From the NCBI GenBank assembly GCA_027028665.1, contig JALVIU010000238.1, forward strand, positions 1 to 10,430: a DNA stretch of 10,430 nucleotides, written 5' to 3'. A program made the position numbers and the translations under genes. The notes below the pieces were generated by a model. It made no database searches. It was given only the letters and a program-made list of their open reading frames with translations, and was not told where the DNA came from. This document shows, piece by piece, positions 2,981-10,430 of the stretch. Numbering within the stretch: the first letter of the stretch is position 1; every line of letters begins with the position of its first letter. The stretch is from Candidatus Atribacteria bacterium. Lineage in GTDB: Bacteria; Atribacterota; JALVIU01.

Positions 2981-5905
2981 TTATTCTTTCAGAAAACTAT
3001 CCATTTCATTTAGAAGTACGTTTAATTTTTCTTGAAGTTCTTTAAATCTATTATCTATATGGTCCATATTATTTTCTTTTATAGCATTTTCAAGCTCTAT
3101 AAGTTCATCTACCATATCACTATCTATGAAATTCCCTATGCTCCCTTTCATAGAATGAACAATTTTTGCCAATCCTTCATTATCTTTTTTTGAGTATAAA
3201 TTTTTAAATTGAGAGATCATATTCTTTATATGGGGTAAATTTTCCTTTATTATATCTTTTAGAATTTCTCTACTTCCAAGATCTTCAATGAGTACTTGTG
3301 GACTGAATATTTTATATTTTTCTTTTTTTGATGTTTCTCTTTTTTGGGTAAGCTCTAAAAATTTATAAAGTGCTTCATATAAGTCTTTAGTTGATATAGG
3401 TTTTGTTATATATCCATCCATTCCAGCCTCTAAAAATTTTTTTACTTCAGATTTAAACACGCTTGCACTTAAGGCCAGGATAGGAGTGTGTTTATTCTTT
3501 TTTCTCTCTATTTCTCTTATAATTTTTGTAGCCTTTACTCCATCCATTACAGGCATTTGTATATCCATGAGGATAAGATCGTAATCGTTTTTTTGATAGA
3601 ATTCTACCGCTTCTTTTCCATTATTTGCTATATCGAATGAAATTCCCATTTTTTCAAGTAAAATGCTCTCTACTCTTTGATTTACTTTATTATCCTCTAC
3701 AAGAAGAACCTTGTATTTATTTGAAAATACATAATTCTCCTCTTTAGTCTTATCTTCTTCTGGCCCATTTATCGGTTTTGTTATTTTTTCAAGTAAATAA
3801 TCTTGTCTTATAGGTTTTACAATATAGCTGTTTACGAGATCTTTGTATTCTTTTAGCATATGTATGAGAGAAGGTGAGACAATTCCGATTAAGGGTATAT
3901 CTTTTTGATTTAGGTTATTCTTTATAATAATTAAAATTTCTTTATCATTTTTTTCTTCATTTATATCAAAGAAAATTATATCAGTTATATAAGTATCTAA
4001 TATTTCTTTAATCTTTTCCTGTTTGAAACTTAGAGTTTTTGAATCCTTGTCGAAATTGTACATACTTTCTGTCTCTATGTTCCATTCTTTTAATATATCT
4101 CTTAAGAATTGAAATGTGTATAAATTTTTTGTGACAACTAATGCATGCTTAAAAAGGACATTACCTTGTTGTCTTTCATGATTTTTTTTCATTTTTCCTA
4201 TAGTTAATTTTATAAAGAAGGAAAAATGACTACCTTTACCAGGCGTACTTTTTACTTCAATATCTCCCTCCATCATTTTAATGAGTTCTTTTGATATGGC
4301 AAGTCCGAGACCTGTTCCTCTATATTCTCTTGTCAGAGATGAATCTACCTGAACAAATTTATCAAATATCGTGTTTATTTTGTCAGGAGGGATACCTATG
4401 CCCGTATCTTTTACTGAAAATTTTAGAGTAATTTTATTGCCGTCTATATTTCCCTTTTCTACTTTTATCCATATACCCCCTTTTTCTGTGAATTTTATGG
4501 CATTTCCCAGGAAATTTATAAGTATTTCTTTTATCTTTATTGGGTCTCCTATAAGAAGTGAAGGAATCTCAGGTGATATGTATGGATAAAGTTCTAATCC
4601 TTTTTTATATACATCACTTGAAACTATGGATATAGTTTCATAAAAGAGTTTCTTTATATCGAATTCTCTTTCATTAAGACTGAATCTACCCTGTTTTATT
4701 TTTGCTATATCTAATACCTCATTTATTATTTCTAGCAAAGCCTTAGATTGTGTCTTTAGTATGGAGAGATATTCTTTTTGTCTTTCTGTAAGTTCATCTA
4801 TCGATATAAGGTCTAATGTAGCTATAATGCCATTTAATGGTGTCCTCATTTCATGACTGATATTAGATAAAAAACGTCTTTCTGTTTCTACTGCTTGAAA
4901 TGCCTCTTCTTTTGCTTTTCTAAGCTCTTCTTCTATAGCCACTCTTTCAGTAACATCATGAACTACTAGTGTATAACCAATAGATATTCCCTTATTTTCT
5001 ATTCTCTTTTGGGAAATTCTAAGGACTTTATTCTTATATCTAATATCATATTGAAGGTAGTCTTTCGTTTTATCAAAATTAGGTATAAAAAATTTAATAT
5101 TTTTTCCTATTATATTTTCTTTTTTTTCATTTAGAATATCTAGTAATATAGAATTTACATCTACTATATTCCCTTCAGCATCCAATATTATGGCACCTTC
5201 TCCTAAATAATTAAAGAAATGTGGTAAGATGTTTTCGGGTTTTAATAGGAGAAAATTGTATTTTTTGATAGCTATATAGAAAAATAGGGAAGGAAGAAAT
5301 GTGAAACTTGCGGCAGACGGCAGTTGAATAAAATCTCGTATAGATATAAGGTAAAAATCTAAAACAAGAAATAGTACAACTATCGAAAATACCCCCATTA
5401 ATATAATATTTATGGAAGCTTTCATGATAGGATTTTTTGTCTTTCTTTTATATGTATATAATAAATATACTCCATATAAATAGACTATCAGTATAGAAAA
5501 TAAAGCAATAGGAAGAAAAAGAGGGCCGGTAGCAATATCTATTCCATAAGGAGTTATTTTCCAACTTTTAATAAATTTATCTGTAAATACTGCAATTATT
5601 ATATTTATAGTATGAATTATATGAAGTAATATAGATATTCTGTCAACAGGCCTATTCATAAACTTATATGCAAATTCTATGAATAATATTCCTGTAGATA
5701 AGAGAAAAAAAATGGCCAGATGGAATACAAGATTGCTTTCTACATGATGTATATAAAATATAGACATATTACATCCTATAAAGCTTAAAGATAAATATGC
5801 GAATGACCTTGTCACTTTATTTTTTGGATTTAATACTATTATGTTTATAGTAAAGTATAAGTTTATAATTGCAGAGATAAGATTTAAGGTATCATATATG
5901 TCCAT
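2981..5905 (-). CDS. Membrane hybrid histidine kinase (7TM-PAS-HisKA-HATPase-pseudoREC-REC-HPt)
   Basis: This 974-residue tripartite sensor kinase has a BarA-like layout. Seven hydrophobic segments (about residues 6-26, 34-53, 59-79, 90-108, 127-150, 161-186, 198-213) form a membrane sensor resembling the 7TM N-terminal region of some histidine kinases; its ligand is unknown. A PAS domain (228-320) and a short coiled coil follow. The H-box is FLSNISHEMRTPLNG with phospho-His351; ATP-binding motifs are N468 (FLGNAIKFT), DTGIGI (500-505) and GTGLGL (530-535). Residues 585-705 fold like a receiver but lack the acidic pair (T592, K593). The second receiver (731-850) is intact, with E737/D738, phospho-Asp781, Ser814 and K835. 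A C-terminal HPt domain has HSMKGS with His917. The start follows a weak ribosome site 20 bases after the upstream kinase, so the two are almost certainly co-transcribed. No DNA-binding output is present. Domain calls are strong; the signal and target are unknown. Confidence 0.93.
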   Translation of the reverse strand: MDIYDTLNLISAIINLYFTINIIVLNPKNKVTRSFAYLSLSFIGCNMSIFYIHHVESNLVFHLAIFFLLSTGILFIEFAYKFMNRPVDRISILLHIIHTINIIIAVFTDKFIKSWKITPYGIDIATGPLFLPIALFSILIVYLYGVYLLYTYKRKTKNPIMKASINIILMGVFSIVVLFLVLDFYLISIRDFIQLPSAASFTFLPSLFFYIAIKKYNFLLLKPENILPHFFNYLGEGAIILDAEGNIVDVNSILLDILNEKKENIIGKNIKFFIPNFDKTKDYLQYDIRYKNKVLRISQKRIENKGISIGYTLVVHDVTERVAIEEELRKAKEEAFQAVETERRFLSNISHEMRTPLNGIIATLDLISIDELTERQKEYLSILKTQSKALLEIINEVLDIAKIKQGRFSLNEREFDIKKLFYETISIVSSDVYKKGLELYPYISPEIPSLLIGDPIKIKEILINFLGNAIKFTEKGGIWIKVEKGNIDGNKITLKFSVKDTGIGIPPDKINTIFDKFVQVDSSLTREYRGTGLGLAISKELIKMMEGDIEVKSTPGKGSHFSFFIKLTIGKMKKNHERQQGNVLFKHALVVTKNLYTFQFLRDILKEWNIETESMYNFDKDSKTLSFKQEKIKEILDTYITDIIFFDINEEKNDKEILIIIKNNLNQKDIPLIGIVSPSLIHMLKEYKDLVNSYIVKPIRQDYLLEKITKPINGPEEDKTKEENYVFSNKYKVLLVEDNKVNQRVESILLEKMGISFDIANNGKEAVEFYQKNDYDLILMDIQMPVMDGVKATKIIREIERKKNKHTPILALSASVFKSEVKKFLEAGMDGYITKPISTKDLYEALYKFLELTQKRETSKKEKYKIFSPQVLIEDLGSREILKDIIKENLPHIKNMISQFKNLYSKKDNEGLAKIVHSMKGSIGNFIDSDMVDELIELENAIKENNMDHIDNRFKELQEKLNVLLNEMDSFLKE

Positions 5906-5925
5906 TTATTCTCACATCCTATGTC

Positions 5926-8724
5926 CTATGTTAAATACTTATCAATTATTTCTAAAAATTTTTTCATATCCAAAGGTTTTTTTAAAAAGTCAGAAAAGCC
6001 TGATTTTTTTGTCTTTTCTATATTATTCTCCATAACATCTGCACTTACTGCAACAACAGGAATATTTTTAAGCTCGGGGATCTTTTTTAGTTTTTTTAAT
6101 ACCTTATGTCCATTTATATCTGGAAGGTTTATATCTAAGAGTATAAGGTTAGGTCTTTGGGCTATGGCTAACTCAATACCTATTCTCCCTTGTGCTGCAT
6201 GGATAAGTTTGATATTTGTTCGTGCAAGAAGCATACGCTCTACAACCCTGGTATTTGAAAGATTATCCTCTATGTATAGGATCTTCTTTTCCTCTTGATA
6301 TGTCTTTTTGAGAACAATATTTCTTTCTTTATTCTCTTTACCTTTCTTATTTTCGGTATCTGAAGTAATAGGAAATATAAGTGAGAAACTACTGCCTATA
6401 CCTAAGCTGCTTTCTACTTCTATCTTTCCGTTCATAAGCTCTATAAGTTTCTTTACAACGGTAAGTCCTATACCTGTTCCTTCTATATTTGAGGATTCTC
6501 TGCCTAAACGCTCAAATGGTTCAAACAATTTTTTTATTTTATCACGGTGTATCCCGATTCCACTATCTTCTATTGTTATTTTTACTTTATTATCCGTAAT
6601 TTTTTTAAAATCTATTTTTACCCAACCTTCATCTTTATTGTACTTTATAGCATTTGAAAATATATTTATTAAGATCTGACGCAGACGGGTATAATCTGCT
6701 ATAACATATATTTTTTCTTTTTCATTTGCATTATTAATGATCTTTATATTTCTCTTAGAAGCAATAGGTTGAACAAGATTTATTACTTCAGTTATTAAAG
6801 ATTGAAGAAGGATAGGTTTCATAGAAAGGGCAACTTTTCCAGATTCTATTCGTGAAATATCAAGAATATCGTTTACAAGTTCTAATAGGTGTTTTCCCGA
6901 TCTTAATATATCCTCTATAGCCTCTTTTTGTTCTTCGGTAAGTTCCCCAAGTAAACCCTCTTCTAATATTTGAGAGAAACCCAATATTCCATTTAAAGGA
7001 GTGCGAAGTTCATGGCTCATGCGGGAGAGAAATTCGCTTTTTGCAGCACTTGCAGCATCCGCTCTCTTTTTTGCCTCAATAAGTCTTCTTTCTATTTCTA
7101 TTCTTGTCTTTTGTTCCATTTTTAAAGCTATGAGATCTGCTACATATTTTGCAAATAGTTCCTCTTCCACTGTCCATTCTCTGTCTTTATTAAAGGACTC
7201 GAAGGATAAGATTCCTATAAGATCATTGCCTGATCTTATAGGAATATCTATGGAACTCCTCTCTATTTTTTGATTATTTAGACCGTGTTCTTGGATGTAT
7301 TTATCTAATTCAGCTCTTATTTCTGCATTATGTTTAGGGCTTATTATAAAAGTTTCTACTTCTTTGTTTTTTGCAGCTTGAAAATATAGAGGGAGTGATT
7401 CCTCATAAGAGATGTAACCATCGGTAAATCTATCTTCGTCTTTTAGGTATATGAATTTAGGTATGAGTGCGTTTTTTTCCTCGTTGAATATAAGAATTAT
7501 TATTTTATCAAGATCTAAAATTACAGCAGTTTTTTTGAGCAGTTTCTTTATAAATTCGTCTAACTCTTTTTGTGAAGCGATATCTTTTTTTGTCATCTCT
7601 AAAAATACCTTAAATGCCTCTTTTAGTTTTTGATTTCTTTCCTCAAGGAACTTTTCATACTGTTTTCTCTTGGTAACATCATAGAAAAATATCCTTGCTA
7701 TGCCTTCTTCTGAAAAGTAAGAGACCCTTACCTCGTATATATGGCCTTTTCTTTCTATTTCATTTATAAAAAATCTCTTTGAATCTTTTTTTGATTCTTC
7801 TTTTTCTATAGTTTTTAAGTAGACGTTGAATAGTTCTGCATCTTTATTTTTATCAAAGACCTTCTTTGCCGCGGGATTCATATAAAGAATTACGCCATCT
7901 GAATTTATCTCTACGATAGGATCTATGAATTCTTCAGGAAATGCAGAAAGACGAAGAATTTCTTTCTTTAGGTTTATTGTTTCTGTAACGTCTCTTTTGA
8001 AGGCTGCAAAATTTATAATTTCTCCATCTGCACTAAAGATGGGAAATATTATATTATACTCTTGATAGAGGGTACCATCTTTTTTCTTATTTGTAATGCG
8101 TCCTCTCCACGTTTTTCCTGAGGCAATAGTATCCCATAGTTCTCTATAAAACTCTTTATCGTGTTTTCCACTTTTTAATATCCTCATATTTTTCCCTATT
8201 GCTTCATCCTTGCTGTATCCTGTGAGTCGTGTAAAGGCAGGGTTTATATATAGGATATTGCCCTTTAGATCTGTTAGGGTAAGGGGATAATCAGATTGTT
8301 CTATTATCTGAATAAGTTTATTTAGATTAAATTCTTTGGATTCTTGTGTGTATTCTTTTGTGAAGAAGAAGGTAATAAATAATTTATTGTTTTTATATAG
8401 TTTATGAAAGATACCCCCTATATGAACAATCTTATACCTATCAATGATTATACTTAATTCTCTATGGAGTTGGACCCTACTCTTTCCTTCTTCTATGAGT
8501 TGTTTAAATACTTTATCAATAAGCTCTGCACTTCCTTCTAAGAATAATTCTCTGTAGTAAGTCCCTTTTAGATCTTTGTGGTTTAATATGTTATACGCAG
8601 ATTCATTTGCCCATACTACATATTTGTGGTTATCAAAGATAATAAGTGGGGTAGGGAGTTCATAGGCCAGATTTCCAATTATATCAGAAATTATTTTCTT
8701 ATTTTCTTTGATTACGTAGTCCAT
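5926..8724 (-). CDS. Soluble hybrid histidine kinase (PAS-PAS-PAS-GAF-HisKA-HATPase-REC)
   Basis: This is a 932-residue cytoplasmic sensor kinase with no membrane segment. In order it has a divergent PAS (about 18-124), a classic PAS/PAC (135-252; GNILYINPAFTRLTGYS, then FKRDVTE), a third PAS (256-354; SDGVILYMNPAAKKVF, then YDVTKRK), a coiled coil, a GAF domain (384-539), and the kinase core. The phospho-His is 571 (FLSRMSHELRTPLNG), the N-box Asn is 691, and the ATP lid has DSGIGI (720-725) and GTGIGL (749-754). A C-terminal receiver has E819/D820, phospho-Asp864, Ser894 and K916. A TTG at 8742 would add six residues. I chose the ATG at 8724 because TTG would start only a few bases after the predicted transcription start and has no ribosome site, while the ATG has GGGGG 11 bases upstream. 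There is no HPt or DNA-binding domain, so an HPt partner is needed; the next gene encodes one. The signal sensed is unknown. Confidence 0.93.
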   Translation of the reverse strand: MDYVIKENKKIISDIIGNLAYELPTPLIIFDNHKYVVWANESAYNILNHKDLKGTYYRELFLEGSAELIDKVFKQLIEEGKSRVQLHRELSIIIDRYKIVHIGGIFHKLYKNNKLFITFFFTKEYTQESKEFNLNKLIQIIEQSDYPLTLTDLKGNILYINPAFTRLTGYSKDEAIGKNMRILKSGKHDKEFYRELWDTIASGKTWRGRITNKKKDGTLYQEYNIIFPIFSADGEIINFAAFKRDVTETINLKKEILRLSAFPEEFIDPIVEINSDGVILYMNPAAKKVFDKNKDAELFNVYLKTIEKEESKKDSKRFFINEIERKGHIYEVRVSYFSEEGIARIFFYDVTKRKQYEKFLEERNQKLKEAFKVFLEMTKKDIASQKELDEFIKKLLKKTAVILDLDKIIILIFNEEKNALIPKFIYLKDEDRFTDGYISYEESLPLYFQAAKNKEVETFIISPKHNAEIRAELDKYIQEHGLNNQKIERSSIDIPIRSGNDLIGILSFESFNKDREWTVEEELFAKYVADLIALKMEQKTRIEIERRLIEAKKRADAASAAKSEFLSRMSHELRTPLNGILGFSQILEEGLLGELTEEQKEAIEDILRSGKHLLELVNDILDISRIESGKVALSMKPILLQSLITEVINLVQPIASKRNIKIINNANEKEKIYVIADYTRLRQILINIFSNAIKYNKDEGWVKIDFKKITDNKVKITIEDSGIGIHRDKIKKLFEPFERLGRESSNIEGTGIGLTVVKKLIELMNGKIEVESSLGIGSSFSLIFPITSDTENKKGKENKERNIVLKKTYQEEKKILYIEDNLSNTRVVERMLLARTNIKLIHAAQGRIGIELAIAQRPNLILLDINLPDINGHKVLKKLKKIPELKNIPVVAVSADVMENNIEKTKKSGFSDFLKKPLDMKKFLEIIDKYLT
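7211..7245. repeat. Perfect 15-bp inverted repeat inside the soluble kinase gene
   Basis: The arms 7211-7225 and 7231-7245 are exact reverse complements with a 5-base loop (TTGCC on the + strand). They fall in codons 494-505 of the soluble kinase gene, in the last conserved strand of the GAF domain (IPIRSGNDLIGI). There is no U-tract on the mRNA side, so this is not an ordinary terminator. It may be a coincidence of codon choice around a conserved motif, or an mRNA structure. Confidence 0.6.
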
Positions 8725-8753
8725 ATAGATATAAGCCCCCAAATATATGTTTT

Positions 8754-8860: not shown

Positions 8861-8907
8861 AAATATAGAGGTCCTGGGGAAAGGAATTCCCCAGGACCTC
8901 TATATTT
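8861..8907 (-). terminator. 21-bp perfect hairpin after fprA, probable intrinsic terminator
   Basis: The arms 8861-8881 and 8887-8907 are exact reverse complements with a 5-base loop. The stem has a GC-rich 12-bp core (GAGGTCCTGGGG) flanked by A+T-rich ends. Its 5' base on the minus strand is the last base of the fprA stop codon. The tail after the core in the fprA mRNA is TATATTTATAAC, a weak U-tract. On the other strand the tail TATATTTTATTG is also T-rich, so the element could act in both directions, though no + strand gene ends nearby. It separates the hrb-fprA unit from the kinase promoter about 80 bases further on. Confidence 0.75.
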
Positions 8908-10103
8908 TATTGTAAGCTTTTATGCCTTTCTGCAATATCTTTTACTAATCTGTCGAGTTCTTTAAAGTCTTTTTCTTCTGGGAGGCCTTTTATGATAACA
9001 GAAGGGATAAATTCTGCTTTTAGCGCAGAGAGTAATTCTTTTAGTGTATCTTCTAATCTCCCTCCCCATCCATAAGAACCTATGAATGATACGTATCTAG
9101 TTTTTGGTCTCAGTGCATTTATAAGATATGCAGTGGATACTATATTTGGATGAGGTCCTGCAAGCACCATAGGCGAACCTATTATAATTGTTGCTGCATC
9201 TACAAGTGCCATAGCGAGCTCTCCTATATCTGTTTTTGATATATTAAAGGGTTTTACACATATACCATTCTCCATTAATTTATTTACTACATAGTCTACC
9301 ATTTTTGCAGTACTTTCATGCATCGAGATATACGGAATAAGTACCTCATTTTTTACATTATCAGATACCCATTCTTCGTATATTCTTAAGATAGAACTTG
9401 CCTTAGAGTGCTTGTATATTACACCATGACTTGGTGCAACTACATCAATTTTTAATTCTTTAATTGTTTTTAAGTGTTTTTTAATATGATTTCTAAAAGG
9501 CATCATTATCTCTGCATAGTATCTTTTTACCTCTGGATATGCTTTAGGGTCATCTTCTGGTTCATTTTCTGCAAAGAGTGCACTTGTTGCAATATGAGAA
9601 CCGAGAAAATCACAGGTAAAGAGCACCCTATCTTCTTTTATATATGTAAACATTGTCTCTGGCCAGTGTACCCATGGAGCAAAGATGAACTCTAATGTCT
9701 TATCTCCAAGGGATAATGTTTCTCGATCTTTTATCGTAATGAATTTTTCTTCTGGTATTAGCAAAAGCTCTTGCAAGAAGCCCTTACATTTTTCATTTGT
9801 TACTACTTTGGCATCTGAATATAATTCAAGTATCTTTGGTATAGTACCTGAATGGTCCTGCTCTGCATGATTTGAGATTATATAATCTATCCTTGGTAAA
9901 TTTAAGGTGTTTAGATTTTGTAGTAACTCCTCTTCTTTGGTTGGATCCACTGTATCTATGAGCGCAATTTTCTCTGAGCCTTTTACTAAGTATGAATTAT
10001 AACTTGTACCGTCGGGTAGAGGAACTAATTCATCGAAGACTCTTCTGTCCCAATCAATTGCTCCTACAAAATATATGCCAGGCTTTATCTCTTTTACTGC
10101 CAT
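8907..10103 (-). CDS. fprA: Flavodiiron protein (A-type; O2/NO reductase)
   Basis: This cytoplasmic enzyme of anaerobes reduces O2 to water and/or NO to N2O, using electrons from rubredoxin. It is 398 residues, the standard two-domain length. The N-terminal metallo-beta-lactamase-like domain (1-245) carries the full diiron ligand set: H79-x-E81-x-D83 (with H84), H146, D165 and H226. The C-terminal flavodoxin domain (about 252-395) has the FMN phosphate loop SMHEST (260-265), GSPMVLAGPHP (309-319) and GSYGWGG (342-348). ATG at 10103 lies 2 bases after the upstream rubredoxin stop, with a good ribosome site GGAAGG, so the two are translated together. The adjacent rubredoxin-flavin reductase is the expected electron donor, as for FprA/Hrb of Moorella thermoacetica. 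The sequence does not tell whether O2 or NO is the preferred substrate. Confidence 0.96.
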   Translation of the reverse strand: MAVKEIKPGIYFVGAIDWDRRVFDELVPLPDGTSYNSYLVKGSEKIALIDTVDPTKEEELLQNLNTLNLPRIDYIISNHAEQDHSGTIPKILELYSDAKVVTNEKCKGFLQELLLIPEEKFITIKDRETLSLGDKTLEFIFAPWVHWPETMFTYIKEDRVLFTCDFLGSHIATSALFAENEPEDDPKAYPEVKRYYAEIMMPFRNHIKKHLKTIKELKIDVVAPSHGVIYKHSKASSILRIYEEWVSDNVKNEVLIPYISMHESTAKMVDYVVNKLMENGICVKPFNISKTDIGELAMALVDAATIIIGSPMVLAGPHPNIVSTAYLINALRPKTRYVSFIGSYGWGGRLEDTLKELLSALKAEFIPSVIIKGLPEEKDFKELDRLVKDIAERHKSLQ

Positions 10104-10105
10104 AC

Positions 10106-10430
10106 TTACCCTTCCTCTTCAAAGCTGTCTTTGCCTACACCACATACAGGGCATACCCAATCATCGGGTAATTCTTCAAATGAAGTTCCTGGGGCGATAC
10201 CATTATCAGGATCCCCAACCTCAGGATCATAAACATACCCACATACTGTACATACATATTTTTTCATATTACTTTCCTCCTTTTTATTCTTTTCTTCTTT
10301 AATATAAGTCGGTGCCGTTTTGGGTGATTTCCCTTTCTTTATTTCATGATAATATGCATAAGTCATAGGTTCTCCTTCCTGGAGTATATCGGCATCGACT
10401 ATTTCTCCCATAAAGATCAGATGGGTACTT
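10106..10430 (-). CDS. hrb: High-molecular-weight rubredoxin: flavin reductase-rubredoxin fusion (5' end outside window)
   Basis: This protein passes electrons from NAD(P)H through a flavin domain to a rubredoxin iron centre and on to FprA. Only the last 107 codons are visible, and the frame is open to the window edge at 10430. The ATG at 10411 is therefore not the start: the upstream codons (THLIF) continue the flavin reductase domain. Visible parts are the flavin reductase C-terminus ([34 protein letters not shown]), a charged linker rich in Lys/Glu, and a complete 53-residue rubredoxin. The rubredoxin has CTVCG (Cys6 and Cys9 of the domain), [20 protein letters not shown] and CPVCG (Cys39 and Cys42), so all four iron-binding cysteines are present. 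It resembles Hrb of Moorella. The stop lies 2 bases before fprA, indicating one operon. An internal ribosome site may also produce the rubredoxin alone. Confidence 0.92.
10265..10281 (-). promoter_or_regulatory. Internal ribosome binding site and ATG for a free rubredoxin
   Basis: Within the fusion gene, minus strand, a perfect AGGAGG (10276-10281) precedes an in-frame ATG (10265-10267) by 8 bases, the best spacing for initiation. The ATG encodes the Met of [10 protein letters not shown], exactly where a stand-alone rubredoxin would begin, and would yield a 53-residue protein ending at 10106. The site itself is translated as part of the Lys/Glu linker. This could be live dual initiation or a relic of two genes fused in frame; the sequence alone cannot decide. 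It is the strongest ribosome site that I noticed in the window. Confidence 0.6.

Follow-up and report, generated by a model that had tools for sequence, protein, structure and literature searches.

An in-frame internal start in hrb predicted to supply free rubredoxin alongside a flavin reductase-rubredoxin fusion

The gene hrb at the edge of the contig studied here is very probably an in-frame gene within a gene that makes both a flavin reductase-rubredoxin fusion (Hrb) and the cell's free rubredoxin; from the comparative sequence evidence we put the probability of this reading at about 0.86. It is based on the internal start site itself, its selective upkeep, its accessibility, an evident start at the same place in relatives whose genes are split, and the complementarity of the site with separate rubredoxin genes.

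Materials and Methods

The window, the whole stretch of DNA that was analyzed (10,430 nucleotides), is an entire contig (C238) of a 1.79-Mb draft genome (G000) that is 90% complete. Hrb-like loci were drawn from relatives, from named genomes, from further genomes and from one class sampled afterwards; phylum searches around G063 and G079 yielded one and four genomes, respectively, and a search of a plasmid collection for hrb relatives returned only matches to the rubredoxin region. The collection came to about 150 fused junctions and 17 first scored as split, of which one (L206) proved on re-reading to be fused.

A Shine-Dalgarno (SD) sequence was counted as strong at a duplex energy of -7 or lower. 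The class labels (which codon counts as a start, and the energy cut-offs of -5 and -7) were chosen while viewing the first data set, and only the class sampled later was collected after labels and cut-offs had been fixed. Background rates came from control ATGs within the same genes and from synonymous recoding, in place of genome-wide rates for G000; for the window, the seven linker residues were fixed and codons drawn according to local usage. Linkers of the Chloroflexi type were scored by direct reading, and the tree was built from Hrb proteins with the linker removed.

Results

The internal start site in the window

The features on which the argument turns are as follows.

8907-10103, minus strand: fprA, flavodiiron protein (PF19583, ODP), starting 2 bases past the hrb stop
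10106-10429, minus strand: 3' part of hrb (about 42 amino acids of the C-terminal end of the flavin reductase, the linker and the rubredoxin; PF00301), with its 5' end beyond the contig edge
10106-10267, minus strand: predicted nested gene for a free 53-amino-acid rubredoxin (NF045768 above cut-off; PF00301)
10265-10267, minus strand: internal in-frame ATG, rubredoxin residue 1, 8 bases past the SD
10276-10285, minus strand: internal Shine-Dalgarno sequence AAAAAGGAGG, coded AAA AAG GAG G, core at 10276-10281

The site reads AAAAAGGAGG-N8-ATG on the minus strand (10285-10265), with the AGGAGG core at 10281-10276 followed by 8 bases and the ATG at 10267-10265, so that an in-frame start codon and an SD at initiation spacing lie inside an open Hrb frame. 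The junction codons are AAT AAA AAG GAG GAA AGT AAT ATG AAA AAA TAT GTA TGT, and the duplex energy of the SD with the anti-SD is -10.9. An earlier note on this DNA had described both this site, as lying before residue 1 of a complete 53-residue rubredoxin, and an upstream frame open through it, and both descriptions hold: the frame, open at the contig edge (10429), continues through the linker ATG without interruption as far as its TAA (10108-10106), and from that ATG there are 53 codons and a stop. The nested protein matches NCBIfam NF045768 from model position 1 (1-50/54; 114 bits against a cut-off of 90) as well as Pfam PF00301 (E 3e-26), and solved free rubredoxins align with a full-length orthologue (L004) from the equivalent methionine, residue 1 to residue 1. 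For the window alone, 6.8% of synonymous recodings of the linker produce an SD of at least this strength (p = 0.068), so chance is not excluded from the window by itself.

The window ends at the contig edge, which cuts off the 5' part of hrb and with it the greater part of the flavin reductase domain. The ~42 residues left upstream align to the C-terminal end of that domain in complete orthologues, of which L004 carries both PF01613 (Flavin_Reduct) and PF00301; the window hrb is 72% identical to L004 (genome G063) over the shared part. Relatives within the genome's own phylum reach at most ~67%, and the closest ones lying outside it suggests either horizontal transfer or a misbinned contig. 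Among solved structures, 1i0r/1i0s (E 9e-53) comes closest to the flavin reductase domain; we take it to be the ferric reductase of Archaeoglobus fulgidus, and unlike Hrb it stands alone with no rubredoxin attached.

As in Hrb systems, hrb adjoins the flavodiiron gene fprA, whose product is likely the electron acceptor in the same operon. Against NCBIfam, the fprA product aligns over its full length with flavorubredoxin models at scores below cut-off, and with a flavodoxin model over its C-terminal part. Farther downstream on the minus strand (2981-8742) lie, side by side, genes for two large hybrid histidine kinases with HisKA, HATPase and receiver domains and, in one of them, PAS domains; the start of the one at 5926-8742 is uncertain, since it is listed with a TTG start and without an SD. 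On the plus strand (3-2974), two ABC ATPases and a CbiQ-family protein, which look like an ECF-type transporter module, precede a tRNA pseudouridine synthase, the genes overlapping end to end.

Conservation of the start signal

The earlier note had proposed asking of orthologues whether the SD is kept beyond what Lys/Glu coding requires, and that comparison favors function. Where a fused junction has an ATG at the rubredoxin start, a strong SD precedes it in 82 of 89 cases, against 31.6 ± 3.9 expected from synonymous recoding of the same amino acids and a maximum of 51 in 200,000 draws. Fused junctions without a start codon there have an SD in only 2/47 (4.5 expected). The contrast is retained among AT-rich loci alone (GC below 0.45; 40/42 with ATG against 0/16 without a start codon), and the excess at ATG junctions persists after thinning by tree distance (22.5 of 26 with an SD against 9.6 expected). 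Control in-frame ATGs elsewhere in the same genes carry an SD in 57 of 324 cases (p 8e-40). SD energy peaks at 9-mers starting at -16, and the start region is less structured than that of control ATGs (unpaired fraction 0.58 against 0.45). The Chloroflexi-type class has a longer than usual SD-ATG spacing of ~11-12 bases.

The motif is kept while the linker around it changes. Within one family of the window's own phylum (f5, to which L118, titled Atribacteria, belongs), an identical AAAGGAG is found in each of the three codon registers (AAG GAG in L017, GAA AGG AGT in L014, AAA GGA GTT in L016), and across lineages the SD is encoded by KE(E/V/A), KGG, EGG, MEV, QED and other residues. L013 has its motif in common with relatives despite an identity at four-fold sites of only 0.29-0.43 (chance 0.27), which is near saturation. 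Archaeal records also carry the SD (Euryarchaeota L051, Bathyarchaeota L057 and L072, Methanoliparum L090), and three loci keep it ahead of a GTG in place of the ATG (L063, L100, L152), with no other rubredoxin in these. The start signal is thus retained beyond coding needs, and on this comparative evidence selection is acting on the nucleotides of the linker and not on its amino acids.

Split relatives

In some relatives the frame is closed just before the site. In L012 and L016 a TAA stands a few bases ahead of the shared SD, at a position that is a sense codon in sister genomes; other stops ahead of the SD occur in L165, L169 and L147, all in families that are otherwise fused, and at additional loci the split is in another frame. 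Within f5, some split and fused genes differ by a single base (TAA/GAA). The rubredoxin of a split locus must start at the SD-ATG, so judging from gene integrity the signal would be a working start in these relatives, and the scattered stops point to an apparent repeated switching between the fused and split forms. One locus first taken as split (L206, genome G518) was rejected on re-reading, since its hrb is fused and an AAGGAA there runs directly up to the ATG.

Complementarity with separate rubredoxin genes

Another rubredoxin gene is rare in site-bearing genomes (4 of 60) and usual in genomes whose fused gene has no site (43 of 49; p = 7e-19; p = 7e-11 using strong matches only), some of the genomes in this count being incomplete drafts. 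The exceptions are the four site-bearing genomes that have one and six genomes that have neither a start codon nor another rubredoxin. Three loci in the same clade as the GTG-bearing L063 and L100 have lost the start (L086, L105, L109), and in these another rubredoxin is present. When compared as edge-disjoint pairs on the tree (~15), about nine differ in the predicted direction and essentially none in the opposite one (median sign-test p 0.004); restricting the test to strongly supported branches leaves 4 independent pairs, too few to reach significance. In the class sampled afterwards, another rubredoxin accompanies 1/31 genes with the site and 4/7 without it (p = 0.002). L206 was left out of this held-out table; it fits the class without a site, because its AAGGAA abuts the ATG and about six other rubredoxins lie nearby. 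Moorella thermoacetica, which presumably has a separate rub gene, would also fit that class. For the window's genome itself, no other rubredoxin gene was found in the 90% complete draft, and the nested start is probably its only source of free rubredoxin, as far as gene content tells.

Two further arrangements were seen in the course of these searches. In G518 (contig C109), L215 (742-2661) has about six rubredoxin-like open reading frames in tandem behind a fused hrb, an unusual rubredoxin array with a rubrerythrin-like frame upstream and superoxide reductase-like and peroxiredoxin-like frames downstream. The small genome G199 (that of L085) has more than one flavin reductase-rubredoxin fusion.

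Discussion

The SD could be present because a Lys-Glu-rich linker happens to use AAG GAG GAA, as the earlier note had allowed, and the recoding result for the window linker leaves room for this. With the amino acids held fixed the family as a whole nevertheless exceeds expectation far beyond any draw, and the motif is all but missing from linkers that have no start codon, which refutes chance at the family level and makes it a most improbable account of the site. A motif sitting in an inter-domain linker might instead pause the ribosome between the two domains and so aid folding, rather than start translation; such a role would not require the motif to accompany a start codon at the right distance, to take an initiation-like position or to trade off with separate rubredoxin genes, and we regard it as highly unlikely.

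The note had also raised the possibility of a fossil, in which adjacent flavin reductase and rubredoxin genes, with the SD between them, were recently fused by stop loss, the old signal has yet to decay and the fusion is the only product. Split arrangements in many lineages, and the single-base difference in f5, show that repeated fusion and fission is real. An undecayed remnant is nevertheless hard to reconcile with an SD that has outlasted near-saturation at four-fold sites, is present across the ~26 well-separated lineages left after thinning, and has come through changes of register in fused genes, nor would it predict a separate rubredoxin gene alongside fused genes that have no site. The persistence over deep divergence and the link with the absence of a separate gene make this explanation improbable. 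A variant compatible with the nested start is that an internal promoter drives a short transcript, and that most of the free rubredoxin is translated from this transcript through the linker SD and ATG. The rpn genes, with internal transcripts alongside an internal start, offer a precedent (PMC10327210), and such a promoter would alter regulation and not the product; we think it unlikely to be the main route, with a modest chance of being so.

Under the nested-start reading, one mRNA would give both the fused protein and a diffusible rubredoxin, as the earlier note had suggested and as SD conservation and complementarity now support. Ribosomes entering at the normal hrb start, beyond the contig edge, would make the fusion, in which electrons taken from NAD(P)H by FMN would reach FprA by way of the attached rubredoxin. 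Other ribosomes would bind the SD in the linker and begin at the ATG of rubredoxin residue 1. The free rubredoxin so made would carry electrons to superoxide reductase, rubrerythrin and FprA, the tethered copy serving as a self-contained delivery chiefly to FprA and the free copy serving the other partners. Internal initiation in fused genes, the relative amounts of the two products and these partners are what we infer. Superoxide reductase and rubrerythrin are known users of rubredoxin. Among the 35 site-bearing genomes tested, the former is encoded in 28 and the latter in 34, and the window's genome encodes both.

The long protein is of the same type as the high-molecular-weight rubredoxin (Hrb) of Moorella thermoacetica, which depends on NAD(P)H, contains FMN as well as a rubredoxin domain, and supplies a flavodiiron protein; an internal start is not among the features described in the portions of these reports available to us (PMC12288474; PMC9364112). 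In-frame internal translation is a known kind of mechanism. Cas11 arises from inside cas8/cas10 in type I-B, I-C and I-D CRISPR systems, where an in-frame internal start, possibly with an SD, releases the C-terminal domain as a separate protein (PMC11899642), as proposed here for hrb; both Cas11-related products join one complex, whereas the small hrb product would be a diffusible electron carrier. RpnS of the Escherichia coli rpn genes is likewise a C-terminal domain made as a protein of its own, from a ribosome binding site and start that lie inside the gene (PMC10327210), although it has an antitoxin function and the proteins are unrelated. Retapamulin Ribo-seq in E. coli and Salmonella revealed internal in-frame starts (arcB, infB, clpB, mrcB and others) that give N-terminally truncated proteoforms in an SD context (PMC11005335); their conservation was assessed within enterobacteria, whereas the hrb site spans many bacterial phyla and some archaea. 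We found no description of a rubredoxin internal start in the literature searched, most subscription journals falling outside its coverage. As judged from the comparisons above, the remaining doubt concerns direct demonstration and not the signal.

It is fairly likely, if less assured than the nested gene itself, that cells of many bacterial phyla and of several groups of archaea obtain free rubredoxin only from the internal start of hrb, and that lineages switch between a fused gene with the start, a split gene and a fused gene without the start plus a separate rubredoxin gene, so that the balance of tethered and diffusible carrier is set on a single mRNA. If true, the conservation of this in-frame gene within a gene would be unusually wide. 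Read by the long frame alone, many anaerobes seem to have no free rubredoxin despite possessing rubredoxin-dependent enzymes of oxygen defense; the nested start would close that gap, and it offers a clean case in which selection on an internal start can be tested. It also suggests that a single electron carrier has moved in evolution between a tethered and a free state.
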